Source: Armatimonadota bacterium (GTDB lineage: Bacteria; Armatimonadota; DTGP01; JAKQQT01). Taken from it: 64,000 bases of DNA. Positions 22,999-33,993 of this stretch are shown here, piece after piece. The position numbers were made by a program, and so were the translations under genes. The first letter of the stretch is position 1, and every line of letters starts with the position of its first letter. The stretch covers positions 1 to 64,000 of the forward strand of contig DASXVS010000048.1 of NCBI GenBank assembly GCA_036504095.1, given 5' to 3'. The notes below the pieces were generated by a model. That model did not search any database, was not told the origin of the DNA, and saw only the letters and a program-made list of their open reading frames with translations.

Positions 22999-23034
22999 AA
23001 AAACCAATAGCCCACTCCCCTGTGAGGAATGGGC
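22999..23034 (-). terminator. Candidate riboswitch-controlled terminator in the Nramp leader
   Basis: On the minus strand GCCCATTCC and GGGAGTGGGC form a 9-bp stem (23034-23010, one G-T pair). TATTGG and then TTTTT (23003-22999) follow. It lies about 50 bases downstream of the M-box aptamer, where an expression platform is expected. Confidence 0.55.
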
Positions 23035-23354: not shown

Positions 23355-23930
23355 CTACGCCCCATTGAATTCGAAGGCCAGCCAATCGCCCTGGAGCCAG
23401 CTCGGCTTCGTTGCCTGGCGGGTGACCCTGACCGTCACCCGGCCGAGCGTCCGGCCCGGATCCAATGAGCCGAGGGATATCGGTCTGAGGGAAGGGAGAG
23501 AAACGAAGCCGTACGTGTAGAACGGCGTAGTGGCGCCGCTGGCGATGAACTCGATCTTGTAGAGCACCTTGCTCCCGTCGGACGGCGGACACGAGTTGCC
23601 CCCGAGGCCGCCGCACCGCCACGCCGTGGCATACAGGTACAGATTGTGTTTCAGCGTAAAAGTGTTCACCACTGTCTTCAACTTGCCGTCGCACGGGGGT
23701 GGCACAAAGGCGAGGGCACGACATGACGTAATCAGTGCACCGCACCCCTCCAGCCCCACGTACGGCTCGATGGTAAGAAAGACGGGGACCGACTGACCCC
23801 CGGCGTCCCGTCCGCGCGTGGTATTCGGGCGTTTCGGCTGCCCGGCCGCGAAGGAATCCGACCCCGATATGCCCAGTGCGGCCAGCAGAGCGAACGCCAC
23901 TATGGCGCGACACAATCCGGTTACAGACAT
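23355..23930 (-). CDS. Secreted Cys-containing subunit-like protein of the secretin locus
   Basis: The start at 23930 has a GAGAAATGAG ribosome site, lies 2 bases after the secretin stop, and gives a signal peptide (CRAIVAFALLAALGISGS). The mature part is about 165 residues. It opens with GGQSVPVFLTIEPYVGLEG, which matches the N-terminal VPVNLTVSPYV motif of the secreted protein at 27364-27891. Five cysteines lie in the middle (GLEGCGALITSCRAL, PPPCDG, WRCGGLGGNSCPP) and could form disulfides. The second half looks like beta strands. I do not recognise a family. Position and the shared motif suggest a third subunit, perhaps a minor or tip component. Confidence 0.65.
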   Translation of the reverse strand: MSVTGLCRAIVAFALLAALGISGSDSFAAGQPKRPNTTRGRDAGGQSVPVFLTIEPYVGLEGCGALITSCRALAFVPPPCDGKLKTVVNTFTLKHNLYLYATAWRCGGLGGNSCPPSDGSKVLYKIEFIASGATTPFYTYGFVSLPSLRPISLGSLDPGRTLGRVTVRVTRQATKPSWLQGDWLAFEFNGA

Positions 23931-23931
23931 C

Positions 23932-25464
23932 TCATTTCTCCTTCGCCTTGTCGGGATCGACGAAGACTTCGGTTCCGTCCAGGATGTGCGGCGTGATGAC
24001 GATGACAACCTCTGTGCGTGATTTCGCTGTCTTCCCGTGGCGGAACAACTGCCCCAGGAGCGGTATATCACCCAGTATTGGCAGCTTGCTTTCGGTGTGA
24101 TCCGCCGTTTCATTGACAAGGCCGCCGATCACGATGCTTTGCCCGTCCTTCACACGCATCGTGGTGGATGCGCGGCGCATGGTAATCTCCGGCAGGCCGT
24201 TGGGCCCCTTCCCGGTGACGTCCCGGACCTCGGGTTCCACGCGAACCGATATCTCGCCCTCGGCCTTCAGCACCCGTGGAGTGATGCGGAGCAAAATGCC
24301 CGACGTTATCTGCTCGATCGTTGCGTATTGGTACGCCGTTGACCCCGTCAGGATGGCGTAGTAGGTCTCCTTGCCGACCTCCATCTCCGCCGTCTGCCCT
24401 TCAACGGTGGCCACGCGGGGGTTTGCGCGGAGTTGCGCCCGGCCCTTGGTGATGAGGGCCTTTAGAGAGACCATCTCGGTCTTGGCGACGTTGGAATACA
24501 GGAGGGATGCCCCCGTCCCAAGCAGGTCCTGCTGCAGCCAGTGCGTCGCCCAGTCGATTCCGAACTCCTTCAAGGCATCGTCGGATACCTCGATGACCTG
24601 GGCTTCGAGCATGACCTGTGCGGGCTCAATGTCCACCTTGGCGATCTCCGACTTGATACGGTCCATCATCGACGGCGGCGCGGTGATAACGAGACGATAA
24701 CGCTGTGGACCGGAGGATGACGAGCCGCCTATCCCGCCGGAGCGGGTCTGGATCCCCGGCGGGGTGCCCATACGCGTGCTCGAGCGACTCTGCGACGAAT
24801 CAATGGGTTGCTGCGGCGCATCGCCTTCGGCGGCGAGGTATTTGCCGTAGGAGTTCGACAACATGCCGATCACGACATTGGGCGCCATGTACTTCAAGTC
24901 CACGATGTCGTTGCGTGTGAGCAGGTTGTAGTTGGGATTGGAAGGATCCGGCAGCCCCACCAGGTAATAGTCATCGACCTTGGCGAAAGCGAAGCCGCCG
25001 GCCTGCAACAGGATGTTCAGCGCCTTCTCGAGCGGCACGCTCTTCAGGTCCGCCGTGACCGTTCCCTGAACGGTGCTGTCCGCTATGATGGTCACACCGG
25101 CGGCCTGGGACACGTCTGAAAGGGCCTGGACGAGATCGGTCGCTGCGAAAACGTTGGTGATGGTCCCGTCAGGCTTGGGCGCGGGCGCGGGTGTCGGAGG
25201 CGGAGCAACGGGGGGCGCAGTCACCGGGGCGGTAGGTTGGGCCTCTGTCCCCGATCCGCTCGCCGGCGTTGCGACCGGCGGGGTTGGCTCCGGCGGCGCG
25301 GCGACCGGCTTAGGCGTGCTCTTGGGTTTCGCCTTTGGCGCGGCCTTGGCCGACTTCGCAGGGGTCTTTGGCCCCGCCTTCGGCGCCTGGGCGAAACCGG
25401 GCGACCCGAAAGCGAACAGGCAGGTCAGAACGGCAAGTTGCAGCAGCCTCGGTGAGTTTCTCAT
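23932..25464 (-). CDS. Secretin-family outer-membrane channel protein
   Basis: This 510-residue protein has a signal peptide (LLQLAVLTCLFAFGSPGFAQ) and a long Pro/Ala/Lys linker (residues 25-100). An STN/N-domain follows (TDLVQALSDVSQAAGVTIIA, then VPLEKALNILLQAGGFAFAK), then a Ser/Gly-rich loop and an N1-like segment. The C-terminal secretin domain has VMLEAQVIEVSDDALKEFGI, LRANPRVATVEGQTAEMEVG, TTMRVKDGQSIVIGGLVNE and SKLPILGDIPLLGQLFR, the canonical secretin signature. Secretins form large outer-membrane rings for type II/III secretion or type IV pili. Here no pil, gsp or sct genes are adjacent. Instead the neighbours are an Ig-like chaperone-like protein and small secreted proteins. Confidence 0.92.
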   Translation of the reverse strand: MRNSPRLLQLAVLTCLFAFGSPGFAQAPKAGPKTPAKSAKAAPKAKPKSTPKPVAAPPEPTPPVATPASGSGTEAQPTAPVTAPPVAPPPTPAPAPKPDGTITNVFAATDLVQALSDVSQAAGVTIIADSTVQGTVTADLKSVPLEKALNILLQAGGFAFAKVDDYYLVGLPDPSNPNYNLLTRNDIVDLKYMAPNVVIGMLSNSYGKYLAAEGDAPQQPIDSSQSRSSTRMGTPPGIQTRSGGIGGSSSSGPQRYRLVITAPPSMMDRIKSEIAKVDIEPAQVMLEAQVIEVSDDALKEFGIDWATHWLQQDLLGTGASLLYSNVAKTEMVSLKALITKGRAQLRANPRVATVEGQTAEMEVGKETYYAILTGSTAYQYATIEQITSGILLRITPRVLKAEGEISVRVEPEVRDVTGKGPNGLPEITMRRASTTMRVKDGQSIVIGGLVNETADHTESKLPILGDIPLLGQLFRHGKTAKSRTEVVIVITPHILDGTEVFVDPDKAKEK

Positions 25465-25504
25465 ACGTTCCTGTCAGTATCTCGGAGAGTCCGGTATGGG
25501 TTTA

Positions 25505-27202
25505 TTAGCCCCTCTTCACGGCGGGCCGCTTTGCCGGAGCGGGCGCGGGCTTCCCCTTGATTTGTTCCATAATAGAGACGATCCGCCGTCCGCTCCTTAC
25601 CTCCACCTTTATCGGAAGCGTCTGCCGCACGGACTTGCTCCCCCCGTACGCCATCTCGGCATTCAATGAGTAGGCGCCGGATTTCACCGCGCTGAAGTCG
25701 ATGACACCGGAAAACTGCGGACTTGAAAGTGGCAGGATCGTCTTCGACGGCGCCTCCAGTTTTATCCTGGCGACCGGATCGCCCATGACCGGGTTCACCG
25801 ATGCAGTTGCAGTCGCATCGAAGTGAGTGTTTCCTGTATTAGCGAACTGGGCCACGACAGCATAAGCGTCCGCTCCCTGACCTGTCAGATTCATCTTCAC
25901 CGGCGCCGCGTTGGGAACGGCCTCAACCTTCGGGTTTGTGACGATGACCTGCGCCTGGGAATCGCCAGCGCTCTGTCCGTTAGGATAAGTGGCGTGAATA
26001 ATTACGTTCGCATAGTAGTTTGCCCGTTCAGGAGCCGTCTCGGGGTAGACCACCCCCAACCGGACGGTCTGGCTGCCGCCGCCTCTAATCGCAAAAGCCT
26101 GGGGTGTCTGCACAACCCAGGCGGCACAGGAATAGCTGGCGCCGGTGATCTGGCCGTCGGTTGCACTGTTCAGTTCGGGGGGTGCAACGGTCTCGCATGT
26201 CACCTGCACTGCTTCCTGGCTCGGGTTTTGCACCACCAAAGTGCCTGACCTGCGGCTCCCTGGCGTGGCTTCGATAATGACAGAAGCCGGTTTCACATTC
26301 AGGCTCGCGTCTGTAGCCACAGACGCCACAGCTGGATCGCCAGCGTAGTCGATCTCCTGGTCAATCCTTCCACTCGGCCGGTTATCAACGTACAGGCGTC
26401 CACTGATCTTATAGTGGCCAGCCGGGAGCGCACGCTTGATATCTGCGGTTGGGCTAAGCACAACACCGGGGAACATTCCGCGTTCCGCAACGTCAGCCTG
26501 GGTTATCCTTCGCCATGCACCGCCAGTCAGGTAGTAGATCTCCACCATCCCACGAACGCGAACGAAAGTCTCTCCTTGATTCTCGATGTTCAGCGCGACC
26601 GCTGTCGAAGCCTGCTTGGTCGCCGACCGCGGAACCAGCTTCATCCCGGCACCAGTGAGGGTAATCCTTTGCTGCACCGGTGGACCCTGCACAGTCACCA
26701 TAACAAGTGGCAGCAACGTGAATTCCACGTTTATGGCCAAACGGCCTGCGCCAGGTGTACGCTGCGTTACGGCAATTCCAGCGTAGTAGTATCCCCTTGC
26801 CTTTTGAGGGATTTTGATCGTGACACTGACGGTCTTGGTTTCCAACGGTGCTAAGTCGACCGAATCGGCGCTGAGCGTGAACCAGTCGAAACAGGAGCGG
26901 GCGGCCACTTTCCCGTTGTTTTGCTGCAGGTCCTTTGGCGCCAGTTGGGTAGGACCCCCACCTTCATCCTGGCCGACTCTTGTGGCGTTCAATGTGATCC
27001 TGGTGTTCGCATCTGCCCTCGCGCTTCGCAATTCGAGGCGTTTCACCACGGTGCTTCCCGGGCGGCCAGTGACTGAGAGTAGCATGGGCTGTGCGCTGAA
27101 CCCCTGGGCGCAGACCGCATGCTGAGTAAGAGCCACAGCTGGGAGCACGAGCAGGCTCTGGACTAAAACCGCGCGTGTGCATGGTAGTGGGATGTGCTTC
27201 AT
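25505..27202 (-). CDS. Secreted tandem Ig-like protein, PapD-chaperone-like or WxLIP-like
   Basis: This 565-residue protein has a signal peptide (ending about AVCAQG). It is almost all beta-rich. The first domain (FSAQPMLLSVTGRPGSTVVK, then LELRSARADANTRITLNATR) resembles the N-terminal domains of DUF916/WxL-interacting proteins and fimbrial chaperones. KKARGYYYAGIAV-like sequence and LLPLVMVTVQG follow. A repeat with the same logic starts near residue 300 (LNVKPASVIIEATPGSRRSG, TLVVQNPSQEAVQVTCE). The C-terminus is a basic Pro/Ala/Lys tail. It lies between two small secreted proteins upstream and a secretin downstream. A role in binding or folding the subunits is an inference from context and fold type. 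Confidence 0.6.
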   Translation of the reverse strand: MKHIPLPCTRAVLVQSLLVLPAVALTQHAVCAQGFSAQPMLLSVTGRPGSTVVKRLELRSARADANTRITLNATRVGQDEGGGPTQLAPKDLQQNNGKVAARSCFDWFTLSADSVDLAPLETKTVSVTIKIPQKARGYYYAGIAVTQRTPGAGRLAINVEFTLLPLVMVTVQGPPVQQRITLTGAGMKLVPRSATKQASTAVALNIENQGETFVRVRGMVEIYYLTGGAWRRITQADVAERGMFPGVVLSPTADIKRALPAGHYKISGRLYVDNRPSGRIDQEIDYAGDPAVASVATDASLNVKPASVIIEATPGSRRSGTLVVQNPSQEAVQVTCETVAPPELNSATDGQITGASYSCAAWVVQTPQAFAIRGGGSQTVRLGVVYPETAPERANYYANVIIHATYPNGQSAGDSQAQVIVTNPKVEAVPNAAPVKMNLTGQGADAYAVVAQFANTGNTHFDATATASVNPVMGDPVARIKLEAPSKTILPLSSPQFSGVIDFSAVKSGAYSLNAEMAYGGSKSVRQTLPIKVEVRSGRRIVSIMEQIKGKPAPAPAKRPAVKRG

Positions 27203-27242
27203 GGGACCTATACCTCCAAAGCTGCATTGGTTTGAGCGCAGC

Positions 27243-27274
27243 GGCGGGGAAGAGATCGAAGCCTCTTCCCCGCC
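27243..27274. other. Strong intercistronic stem-loop before the chaperone-like gene
   Basis: GGCGGGGAAGAG (27243-27254) and CTCTTCCCCGCC (27263-27274) form a perfect 12-bp stem with an 8-base loop. No T-tract follows on the minus strand, so it is more likely an mRNA-stabilising or processing hairpin between the abundant subunit gene and the downstream genes than a full terminator. Confidence 0.7.
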
Positions 27275-27363
27275 ACCTCGGGTCTTGCCGTCTCTACAAT
27301 CTATCCAGTGGCAGAGATTGCACGAGAGTCAAGGGTTAGCAGTTGTGCCTGCTGCGAGTCACG

Positions 27364-27891
27364 TTACGGGTTAGTGGCCGCCGTAATCTTCATCGTACCG
27401 ACGTAGCTGCCCGTAGCTGTAGCGGTAGTGATTCCATTCACCGTAAGCGTCATTGGCACAAGGATTTTCTTGTTATTGTCGGTAGGATTGGTCGTGATGA
27501 GGGTTTGCAGTGGCGGGGCCACAGGGGCGCCGTCGAATTGCATTAGCCAACTGCCGGGCAACGCGGTCGCGCCGGAGCCCAAGTCTAGGTCGAACTTAAT
27601 GGTCGAAGGGCCATTGTCGACCCATGCGACGTTCACTGTGTCGCTACCACTGCCGCCGTTGCCATCGACGGTGATGCTGAATCCGGCCTTGTTGTTTGCT
27701 AGATTCGCGCCGTAAATGGTTGTGTCCCAACCGGTGTTGTAGGAGGCGTCGACGGCGAATGCGGCAAAGACGTACGGGCTGACGGTCAAGTTGACCGGCA
27801 CAGTGGTGTTGCTGGTCGCGGCATTGTTGGATGCAAACGCGGCGGTGCCGAGGGCGAGGACGCCGGCGGCGATGAAAATTCCGAGTTTCAT
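27364..27891 (-). CDS. Small secreted beta-rich protein, subunit-like (paralogue B)
   Basis: The start at 27891 (MKLGIFIAAGVLALGTAAFA) gives a signal peptide and a mature protein of about 155 residues; upstream in-frame codons are not protein-like. The mature N-terminus has TTVPVNLTVSPYVFAAFAVD. Then ASYNTGWDTTIYG and NNKAGFSITVDGNGGSGSDT, VNVAWVDNG and LVPMTLTVNGI. It is clearly paralogous to the next gene (28138-28695): both have PYVFA.FA.DASYN.GWD and NKAGF...VDG.GG..DTVN.AW. No cysteines. Likely an exported structural subunit handled by the chaperone-like protein and secretin downstream. The family is not one I can name. Confidence 0.7.
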   Translation of the reverse strand: MKLGIFIAAGVLALGTAAFASNNAATSNTTVPVNLTVSPYVFAAFAVDASYNTGWDTTIYGANLANNKAGFSITVDGNGGSGSDTVNVAWVDNGPSTIKFDLDLGSGATALPGSWLMQFDGAPVAPPLQTLITTNPTDNNKKILVPMTLTVNGITTATATGSYVGTMKITAATNP

Positions 27892-28013
27892 TTGGAACTC
27901 AATCTCCATGCCATCCATTCTAAAGGATGGCGGGTCGGTTGCCGAAAGGCAACATGGTTGTGTTCGCGGTTGTCCTGTGGTTAGTGGCCCGGACTTCCGC
28001 ATTCCGCTGTTCT

Positions 28014-28040
28014 GCGCCAGGGTTTCTTCAGCCCTGGCGC
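28014..28040. other. Hairpin between the two subunit-like genes
   Basis: GCGCCAGGG (28014-28022) pairs with CCCTGGCGC (28032-28040), a perfect 9-bp stem. TTTTT follows at 28047 on the plus strand only. On the operon (minus) strand it has no T-tract and may protect or separate the two subunit messages. Confidence 0.6.
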
Positions 28041-28137
28041 CGGGCGTTTTTGGCAGCGGCTCCCGTCCGTTGCCATATCGCATTTGGTCCGGCTGCCCCC
28101 GGACCCGGGCGGAACGGCCCTTGCCGTTTCCATGCTC

Positions 28138-28695
28138 CTACCATTTAGGAATGGTTGGGTCGTTCCCGGTTATGTCGGTCTGGACCATCGTGATGCTCAG
28201 CGTTGCGCCGTAATTCCCGGCGGGAACCGACATCGTGACGCCAGATACTCTCACAGTGACCGGCACCAGCACCTGCTTCGTCGGTCTTCTTCCGTTCGGA
28301 TTGCGCGTCAACACCAGCGGATCGGGCGACGTGACGATCTTGCCGCCGGCCTCCATCGTCCAGATACCGGGAAGGCTTCCCTGATCCAGTACCAGGACCA
28401 CGCGGGACGGCACGTTGGCAGCCCACGCGAGGTTGACGGTGTCTTCCGCACCGCCGCCGTGTCCGTCCACTTCGAGGTTGAAACCGGCCTTGTTGTCTTC
28501 AACCAGCGCGCCATACACCGCCCTGTCCCACCCGATGTTGTAGCTTGCGTCCTCGGCGAAGGTGGCGAAGACGTAGGGCTGGCCGATCGGTGGATCGGGC
28601 GGCACTCTGGTGTTGCCCGTCGTTCCGTAAGACTGTGCGAAGGCGTGTGTGCCCAGAACGAGTGCGCCGATAGCTAGAGTGGTTCCCAGTTTCAT
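28138..28695 (-). CDS. Small secreted beta-rich protein, subunit-like (paralogue A)
   Basis: This 185-residue protein has a signal peptide (MKLGTTLAIGALVLGTHAFA). The mature region has IGQPYVFATFAEDASYNIGW, then DRAVYGALVEDNKAGFNLEV, EDTVNLAWAANVPSR, and a C-terminal VLVPVTVRVSGV. It aligns along its length with the product of 27364-27891 at roughly one third to one half identity by eye. It is the first gene of the minus-strand locus ending at 23355. Two tandem paralogues with signal peptides ahead of an Ig-like protein and a secretin suggest major and minor subunits of a surface structure. Confidence 0.7.
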   Translation of the reverse strand: MKLGTTLAIGALVLGTHAFAQSYGTTGNTRVPPDPPIGQPYVFATFAEDASYNIGWDRAVYGALVEDNKAGFNLEVDGHGGGAEDTVNLAWAANVPSRVVLVLDQGSLPGIWTMEAGGKIVTSPDPLVLTRNPNGRRPTKQVLVPVTVRVSGVTMSVPAGNYGATLSITMVQTDITGNDPTIPKW

Positions 28696-31442: not shown

Positions 31443-33683
31443 CTACGCGCCCGAGATCTGGAACATGTGCGTCTCGCACGCGGGCAGATGGAAGATCGCG
31501 CGCTCCGCGCTGGCCATATTCACCACCGTCAGATCAACGTCACGATTCCACGGGTTGCGGATCGTGACAACGCCGCCTTCCCAGTCCTCGTCGAGTATCT
31601 CGACGGACTCGATGACGTAGAGCTTCTCATTGAGGGGGTCTACGAACAGTGTACCCCAGTCGCGCAGCCAATCCTCCACCAGGATGATCCAGCCCGCGCA
31701 CCACGAATGCGCCAGCGGCAGGACCATACCCTTCGGGTGAGTCCAGTCAGTGTGGAACAACTGTTCCGGCACCATCCCGCGCCGCGCATTGAAATCTCCG
31801 TCCCCACGTGCCACGAACTGCCGGAAGCAGAATACATGATCGCGGGCGCGGGCGAAATAGAAATCGTCGCCCGAGAGGCGCCAGAGACGCAGCAGCGCGG
31901 GGATGCAAATGTAGCCGTAGTTGTGGAGGTGCTGATTGCACGGCGACGCGATGTCCGCTCCCTTGCTCCGGAAGTCGTATCGTCCCAACAGCGTCTCTTG
32001 CGGAAAGGTGGCGTTGTACGACATCCGGAACGAGAGGGCATAATCGGCCGCCTGGCAAGCGAGGCGAAGCCAGGAGTCGTCCGTCGTCTCTTCGTACAGG
32101 CCCATCATCGCGATGAGCGCGTTATATCCGTCCTCCGACGTCACACCGTAGGGGACGTCCTCCGGCGCACCGGCGAGATGCTTCGTTCGGATCATCTGCG
32201 CATAGTAGATCCCGGCGCGCGAGGCCGCCGCGAGGTAATCGGCCGCGTGCGCGAAGGGGCTGCCGAACGCGTTGCGGTAGCGCGCCGCCAACAGCAGCGC
32301 CGGTATCCACATCAGCCCGCCCGCGCCGTTCCATTCCTCCACCACGCCCGTTTCCAGGTTATAATACGTCCCGAACGATCCATCCTCGCGCTGAATCTTC
32401 ACCGCGTAGTCGAGGTTAGTGCGAACGGCATTCTCCCAACGCGTCAATCGATCCCCGATGGCCCAGCCTTCGGGATCGGTCAAGGCTTTGAGGAGGAACC
32501 AGGTTGCTTCACTGATGGTGCGGCTCTGCGCCACCGGGGGCAATGTATCATCGTCTACCCAGCCACCCGTCCATCCCGCATCTTCGGTCCACTGAGGGTA
32601 GAACATTCCTGCCGGAGCGATGCCCTCGCCGGCGATTTCGTCGATGACGTCCAACCCCGCGTTCACTTGCTGTGCGGACCCGGTGAGAGCGCCGTGGTGC
32701 GCCAGCGCATACGCGTAGGGAAGGCCGCTGACCCAGGCGACGTGCATATGCTTTCGATCCCACTGTCGCAACCCGGGACGAAAATACCGGTCGAACCCCG
32801 CGGTTTCGTATAGCGCGGAATTGGCCGGGTCATAGTGCCAGTTCAGCAGTCCGTCCGCGGCGAGTTCTGAAGCCTCGGCTCCCGGCATCCACGGATTCAG
32901 GCACTGCGGGTCGTCCACGTAGGTGTCCCGGAGGAGCGAGCGACTCCCAGCAGCGCCCGCATACACCTCGAACGAGAAGCAAACCGTTTCGCCGGGCGCT
33001 ATCCGGAACAGCGGCGCTTCCGCCGCATCGCCTTCCAGGTGGAACGGGGCGTATCGAAGTGGTTCCTCGCGATAGGGAAAATGCACCGAAAGCGCCGCCG
33101 CTGTTGCGTCCGCGGAGAATCCGATTCCCGACGCGCCATGGCTGAACCGGTCCGACGTCACTAACGCGGCAGACAGCCCTTCGGCCCGCAGCATCACCAA
33201 CGGCGTCATCGTGCGGTCGGTCCGGAACTTCCAGGTCGGCGAAGAGGCACGGTCTTCCGGTTCAAATTCGGCCGACCATCGGGGGTAGCTGCCGCGCCCG
33301 CGCGGGCGATTCTCGCCGTAGAAGATGCCGGGCACGAACGGCTCGGCGTTCTGAATATGAACTGACCATTCGGCATCGAAACCGGTTTCAATCGCGGCAT
33401 CGCCAACGTACATCGCCTGCACGCTCCACGCGGCGCGGGGGGACCTTTCGCCAACAACGGAGATTTCGGCGGTAACCTTCCAGCGATCGTCGACCACCCC
33501 GGTCAGAAGCATCGCCCCCTCATCCACCTCGACGCGGGTCCAGAACACGGTCCCACCGTCGCGGTCTGTCAGGCGAAAGCCGTCCGCCACAGTGTCTCCC
33601 GCCATCTCCATCGAAAAGAGGAAACCATGCGTGCCGGGGCGAACGCTGAGCCGAGTGTGTACATCCAGATACAGTTCAAACAT
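31443..33683 (-). CDS. Six-hairpin (alpha/alpha)6 glycosidase-like protein
   Basis: The start at 33683 (MFELYLDVHTRLSV) gives 746 residues. The first 300 residues are beta-rich. From about 330 on, helices typical of six-hairpin glycosidases appear: YETAGFDRYFRPGLRQWDRK, WFLLKALTDPEGWAIGD, LDYAVKIQREDGSFGTYYN and HLHNYGYICIPALLRLW. The WEDGSFG-like turn is typical of lyases and hydrolases with this toroid. A C-terminal beta domain closes it. I cannot assign a GH or PL family or substrate. No signal peptide is visible, so a cytoplasmic enzyme acting on oligosaccharides is likely. Confidence 0.65.
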   Translation of the reverse strand: MFELYLDVHTRLSVRPGTHGFLFSMEMAGDTVADGFRLTDRDGGTVFWTRVEVDEGAMLLTGVVDDRWKVTAEISVVGERSPRAAWSVQAMYVGDAAIETGFDAEWSVHIQNAEPFVPGIFYGENRPRGRGSYPRWSAEFEPEDRASSPTWKFRTDRTMTPLVMLRAEGLSAALVTSDRFSHGASGIGFSADATAAALSVHFPYREEPLRYAPFHLEGDAAEAPLFRIAPGETVCFSFEVYAGAAGSRSLLRDTYVDDPQCLNPWMPGAEASELAADGLLNWHYDPANSALYETAGFDRYFRPGLRQWDRKHMHVAWVSGLPYAYALAHHGALTGSAQQVNAGLDVIDEIAGEGIAPAGMFYPQWTEDAGWTGGWVDDDTLPPVAQSRTISEATWFLLKALTDPEGWAIGDRLTRWENAVRTNLDYAVKIQREDGSFGTYYNLETGVVEEWNGAGGLMWIPALLLAARYRNAFGSPFAHAADYLAAASRAGIYYAQMIRTKHLAGAPEDVPYGVTSEDGYNALIAMMGLYEETTDDSWLRLACQAADYALSFRMSYNATFPQETLLGRYDFRSKGADIASPCNQHLHNYGYICIPALLRLWRLSGDDFYFARARDHVFCFRQFVARGDGDFNARRGMVPEQLFHTDWTHPKGMVLPLAHSWCAGWIILVEDWLRDWGTLFVDPLNEKLYVIESVEILDEDWEGGVVTIRNPWNRDVDLTVVNMASAERAIFHLPACETHMFQISGA

Positions 33684-33993
33684 GGTGTCAGCCGGCGATG
33701 TGCTTTCCCGCAGATTCGGGAGAGGAAATCTGCTCCGCGAAGCGTGATACTTTATTGTTGACCGCGAGGGCGCGCGGCGTCCAACCGCGGAACTACGCTG
33801 TCGCTTTCCCGAATGAGCAACACATCTGCGCAGCCATTGAAAGATTGCTACGGAAATGTGCATACTTCGCACGAGAGAGCGTACCCGCTCGCTTCGCCCT
33901 TCGGGGTTGGACCGTCTGTGTTTCGGTCTCTCGCTTAACCGTCTTCGGCACGGTTCTGAATTAGCGAAACCGTGCCCTGCTCCGAAAGGATGG
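33684..33993. other. Divergent spacer with a hairpin before the Lys-rich protein gene
   Basis: This 310-base spacer has no credible ORF. GGCACGGTT (33947-33955) and AACCGTGCC (33968-33976) form a perfect 9-bp stem just before the ribosome site AAAGGA (33986-33991) of the next gene. It could act as a 5' leader hairpin. Confidence 0.45.

Follow-up and report, generated by a model that had tools for sequence, protein, structure and literature searches.

Secretins are known as the outer-membrane exits of ATP-driven machines, and surface fibres delivered by chaperones are known to leave the cell via ushers. What, then, would a secretin do in a gene set that also encodes a chaperone-like protein built of immunoglobulin (Ig)-like domains and several small secreted proteins? 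The question is raised by a 64-kb stretch of Armatimonadota DNA (the window) from contig C48 of a 4.68-Mb genome in 80 contigs, which contains five genes, all on the minus strand, in the order A1-A2-C-D-E. These genes and two associated hairpins are as follows.

28138..28695, minus strand: A1, 185 aa, Sec-secreted, beta-rich and subunit-like (signal peptide by eye)
27364..27891, minus strand: A2, 175 aa, subunit-like paralogue of A1, starting at ATG 27891
27243..27274, minus strand: strong RNA hairpin between A2 and C, 12-13 bp stem, no T-run
25505..27202, minus strand: C, 565 aa, predicted tandem double WxLIP-like/chaperone-like protein with four beta-sandwich domains and a signal peptide
23932..25464, minus strand: D, 510-aa secretin with a Pro-rich linker, an N0/STN domain and the secretin core
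23355..23930, minus strand: E, 191 aa, Sec-secreted, 6 Cys, starting 1 bp past the D stop
23010..23034, minus strand: terminator-like hairpin downstream of E, 11-bp stem and T-rich tail (consensus match only)

The sequence-only reading had described five minus-strand genes running in one direction, and they are present in that order; two of the starts needed correction. For A2 the most likely start is 27891, the listed 239-aa frame being a start-site artefact, as is the 254-aa frame listed for E, which starts at ATG 23930 behind AAGGAG and not at TTG 24119. With its start moved, E is still the third small secreted Cys-containing protein of that reading. Sec-type signal peptides, judged by eye, are present on A1, A2, C, D and E. 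The A2-C intergenic region has an RNA fold z of -3.4, and its hairpin is a possible attenuator of downstream expression. Both hairpins are consistent with one transcription unit, within which the subunit genes could be expressed above the rest. The flanking genes on both sides are metabolic or transport genes (GH130, SDR, peroxiredoxin, GH38, DUF72, Nramp, MFS, epimerase, SBP), and a scan of ten genes around the set (about 14.8-36.9 kb of the window) turned up no pil, gsp, sct or tad gene, in line with the earlier remark that pil, gsp and sct genes are missing nearby. An 809-aa protein encoded at 31443-33872 on the minus strand of the window has no Pfam match at 1e-5.

Sequence comparison of the two halves of C shows that the N half is homologous to the C half (hhalign 99.9%, 6e-35), and each half matches a family of half-length relatives (100%; 2e-44 and 2e-37). 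These alignments show C to have arisen by tandem duplication of a unit with two Ig domains. The AlphaFold model of C contains four beta-sandwich domains (mean pLDDT 81.7), and the best consistent PDB matches in Foldseek are WxLIP structures from Enterococcus faecium, 9i1y and 9i25 (E 9e-11 and 2e-10, TM 0.67 and 0.69 of the target, 271-272 columns), the second of which was solved with bound WxL; the remaining top matches are long tandem-Ig proteins with low TM-scores. The modelled fold of C is thus WxLIP-like, which upholds the earlier description of this 565-residue Ig protein as PapD/WxLIP in style, with WxLIP the nearest. Pfam searches with the window C gave weak Ig-type matches (fn3_5 7e-6; WxLIP_PGBD, PF06030, 0.003 and below its cut-off) and no PapD match, and a comparison of C with plasmids gave no match.

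Pilus chaperones act by completing the sandwich of a partner with a strand of their own. In the C model, GYYYAGIAVTQRTPGAGRLAINVEFTLLPLVMVTV, the stretch matching the WxLIP hairpin, forms a strand-loop-strand. In published AlphaFold models, a strand of the WxLIP hairpin fills the gap in WxL and completes the WxL sandwich (PMC10599100).

These matches would also suit a diderm version of a WxL/WxLIP cluster, with C as a peptidoglycan- or surface-bound scaffold for WxL-like small proteins and D as an exit pore only, involving neither polymerisation nor hand-over to D. Besides the best fold match, weak Pfam WxLIP_PGBD matches in 3/10 members of the C family (best 1.5e-4) and the basic Pro/Ala-rich tail at the end of C speak for it. 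However, this tail has no hydrophobic segment and no transmembrane (TM) helix that could serve as an anchor was seen in C, A1, A2, E and 41 related small proteins all lack a WxL domain, and the close association of C with a secretin clade points to partners that work together. We consider the cluster reading rather unlikely.

The nature of D is clear. It matches Pfam Secretin (PF00263, 4.5e-45) together with an N0/STN domain and is full length, bearing out its earlier identification as a full secretin; against the NCBIfam GspD model TIGR02517 it scores 181 bits, under the cut-off of 351. D also matches PHROG 1012, protein IV of M13 (9e-45), as would be expected in a filamentous phage or prophage remnant. 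This single match, however, is explained by membership of the secretin family, the other proteins of the set are without a PHROG match, and the neighbours are metabolic and transport genes, so that a phage origin was ruled out; its chance is negligible.

To which secretins does D belong? Its own genome encodes eight. In a tree of 55 secretin cores, taken from eight genomes and the C-linked loci, the C-linked secretins form one branch of 26 rows (25 linked secretins and L136; support 98/96), and PilQ-type, Tad-type and other secretins fall outside it. L136, the sole unlinked row, lies near a contig edge. In genomes with several modules, the C tree and the D tree give the same groupings, e.g. 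L079 with L082, L083 with L085, and L084 with L089. The C-linked clade and these matching groupings show that D is dedicated to the module. The earlier concern that D might group with the genome's only PilQ falls away, the genome having eight secretins and D being near neither PilQ nor Tad secretins. A search for relatives with the secretin segment gave at least six loci; the alignment of C offered no segment of sufficient conservation for such a search. The sister of the D clade is a tandem secretin cluster, found on contig C26 in the own genome. This secretin triplet (C26:77452-81336, L037), with AMIN-like N-termini in two members by eye, recurs across the phylum, at G010:C138, G019:C31, G047:C45, G058:C59, G257:C2, G251:C67 and G267:C346.

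The tree also bears on the source of energy. D might belong to an orphan type II-like route, powered in trans by type IV pilus or Tad machinery, with C as a cargo adaptor. T2SSE-type ATPases are encoded elsewhere in all 23 C-bearing genomes checked, the own genome has T4P-looking (pilMNOPQ-type) and Tad-looking loci, and D has kept its N0 domain, all of which favour such a route. It is nonetheless quite improbable, since in the tree D lies at a distance from the PilQ and Tad secretins, no inner-membrane partner gene is encoded near it, and the pairing with C would be left unexplained.

How general this pairing is was assessed in related genomes. Profile searches found the C family in 44/291 genomes of the phylum, in a full-length and a half-length shape; the own genome encodes no paralogue of the window C. 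Gene calls in the related loci were made by a simple script, giving approximate starts, and the genes around C were seen only as ORFs with C/D profile matches. Full-length C (about 500-650 aa) occurs in about 24 Armatimonadota genomes and in one genome of another small candidate phylum. At 27 of the 28 testable full-length loci, i.e. those followed by at least 1.5 kb of contig, a D-type secretin lies within four genes on the same strand (within two genes at 25/28), whereas a secretin is found beside 0/19 of the half-length relatives (about 270-310 aa). The difference is significant (Fisher 3e-12), with a p-value overstated by the relatedness of the sequences. The C-secretin pairing is therefore far beyond chance, and the arrangement that the sequence-only reading proposed to look for in other Armatimonadota does recur. 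At the single unlinked locus, L023, the contig ends soon past C, and the same genome has the D-type secretin L136. G128 has four separate C-family loci (L078, L079, L080 and L087) with a secretin for each.

In G291, from the other phylum (four genomes), C lies at a contig end, preceded by two small secreted proteins; another contig, whose first bases resemble the end of a C-family protein, begins with a D-type secretin. This fits one C-D pair broken by an assembly gap. The gene set is conserved, and apparently undescribed, in Armatimonadota.

The small secreted proteins of these loci diverge fast. A1 and A2 are indeed the paralogous pair that had been read from the window (phmmer 7e-45), and a search of 41 genomes with A2 returned no match besides A1 and A2 itself. 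A1, A2 and E have no Pfam or NCBIfam match above noise, and Pfam detects WxL, DUF4402 or other pilin domains in 0/43 small proteins including A1 and A2. E has no detectable homology to other small proteins of related loci; L029 has a subunit-like gene after D, in the same position as E. The AlphaFold model of A2 is all-beta and of low confidence (pLDDT 54), and it gave no Foldseek match below 1e-3. The structure predictions drew on the window and its related loci alone, with shallow alignments of 7 and 2 rows. Weak matches of this model to FimA, the PapG pilin domain and BPSL1626 were set aside because the model is poor.

Small secreted-like ORFs are commoner beside C-family genes (81/111) than elsewhere (59/197), and a G-x-Y C-terminal strand motif occurs in 29/81 of the small ORFs there vs 4/59 elsewhere. 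A1 carries such a C-terminal strand motif (GNY..T), and A1 and A2 share about 29 C-terminal columns with a small-protein family from secretin loci (93%), a similarity that is confined to the motif. ORF 12 of L077, a small protein of a secretin locus, has clear homologues among the subunits of usher-like loci, with values down to 2.7e-17. That the small proteins might never accompany the secretin had been named as a result that would sink the idea of a joint system; small secreted proteins do occur beside the secretin across loci. Iterating a profile search on the small proteins pulled in nearly all of them by drift, and the result was not counted as evidence for homology.

What do the half-length relatives do in place of pairing with a secretin? 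Directly after the gene comes a protein of at least 550 aa at 16/19 loci, two more precede 537-aa and 925-aa proteins, and most of the relatives adjoin a large predicted surface protein of 650-970 aa. As candidate ushers these large partners were rejected: they fail the Pfam usher test, and the term usher-like refers here to no more than their position and architecture. No usher (PF00577) scored above cut-off in 12 genomes including the own one. The proposal that a secretin replaces the usher is strengthened by the single-unit relatives, which adjoin large usher-like proteins, although these are not ushers by Pfam; the secretin of the full-length loci may stand in for an usher. Loci L092-L109 (e.g. 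L098:4380-8534 and L102:6238-11187) look like undescribed chaperone-usher-like loci in Armatimonadota; they encode a half-length WxLIP-like protein, 1-6 small secreted proteins and a surface protein of 650-970 aa that is predicted to form a barrel and bears carboxypeptidase-regulatory domains.

Two half-length loci, L105 and L109, provide a link to pilus chaperones, having DUF4402 subunits above cut-off and a partner of about 870-910 aa. On Polaromonas plasmids, relatives of this partner are encoded beside DUF4402 subunits and a gene with a chaperone annotation. PapD_N scores above cut-off in one of these chaperones, annotated as a fimbria/pilus periplasmic chaperone, and its identity with the L105 chaperone is 34%. 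In profile comparisons, chaperones of the L105 type hit both the half-length family (99.0%, 3e-18, 233 columns) and the N half of C (97.9%, 5e-13), only moderately above a control set of other Ig domains (96.6%, 7e-10, 158 columns). This makes the link of the C family to PapD chaperones suggestive, not proven. Most other large partners are interrelated over their barrel-like part and a CarboxypepD_reg/SdrD_B end, and share C-terminal domains, nothing more, with the partner in L105. The single-unit family found no sequence match in the PDB. The Polaromonas plasmid loci L149 and L150 are DUF4402-chaperone-carboxypeptidase-regulatory operons, likely pilus operons whose likely outer-membrane protein is missed by the Pfam usher model.

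Some partners of the single-unit relatives have weak NCBIfam matches to S-layer proteins. Together with the tandem Ig architecture of C, these would agree with a structural role in which the secretin ring is an outer-membrane tether or S-layer-type anchor and not a conduit, and C and the small proteins are components of the layer. Set against the complete secretin core of D and the recurrent terminal strand motif of the small proteins, this is very unlikely.

With its gene set, its dedicated secretin clade and its duplicated C, the locus is best read as a dedicated chaperone-secretin module, in which C would deliver Sec-exported subunits and D would replace the usher, resulting in a surface fibre or coat. 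We give this reading about an even chance (probability about 0.5). A1, A2 and probably E would be exported by Sec to the periplasm and bound there by C, which would act as their chaperone, most likely by offering a beta-strand of the hairpin that lies between domains 1 and 2; the doubled C may carry two subunits. C would then hand the subunits to the N0 ring of D, which, as the secretin of this module alone, would be the outer-membrane exit in the usher's place, and the exported subunits would remain on the cell surface, forming a fibre or coat. The parts of this scheme that we infer are the lending of the strand, the hand-over to D, polymerisation and independence of an ATPase. More tentatively, and at clearly less than even odds, the module could represent a new class of pathway, in which a doubled chaperone passes folded or part-folded Ig-like subunits to a secretin, polymerisation proceeds by strand exchange without an ATPase, and the pore has been swapped on a chaperone stock of the usher type. 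A C-bearing genome without T2SSE ATPases, which was sought as a test of the ATPase-free idea, was found in 0/23.

A conserved module in which a dedicated secretin is paired with a chaperone-like partner would bring together two pathways regarded as separate. The module would show a swap of the outer-membrane pore with the chaperone stock kept, and would connect the WxLIP proteins of Gram-positive bacteria to the pilus chaperones of diderms; whether a secretin can export and assemble subunits without its usual motor becomes a testable question. A literature search, mostly without subscription papers, found no paper joining DUF916 with a secretin, and none joining secretin, chaperone-usher and Armatimonadetes.

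Among known systems, the WxL/WxLIP clusters (PMC10599100; 9i1y, 9i25) resemble the window set in having one Ig protein with small secreted proteins, and the two-Ig-domain fold of their WxLIP, with its PGBD and HBD domains, appears to be repeated in C. They differ in that WxLIP has a C-terminal TM helix, whereas the window C is doubled and has none; in encoding at least two WxL-domain proteins, whereas the small proteins of the window have no WxL domain; and in being Gram-positive, whereas the window set includes a secretin and has a diderm host. The secretins of type II secretion and type IV pili (GspD, PilQ, CpaC) have the secretin core and N0 domain in common with D, but D is a short protein in a separate clade, with no ATPase or inner-membrane platform genes nearby. 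Archaic chaperone-usher systems have been reported from Proteobacteria, Cyanobacteria and Deinococcus-Thermus (PMC4654587). Compared with the archaic and alternative chaperone-usher systems, the window has a secretin and not an usher as its pore, a C with four domains, and subunits that match no pilin family. Nevertheless, the order of subunits, chaperone and outer-membrane protein is the same, the subunits are likewise small and secreted, and sequence profiles suggest a link, via L105 and L109, between the C family and a PapD_N-positive chaperone.
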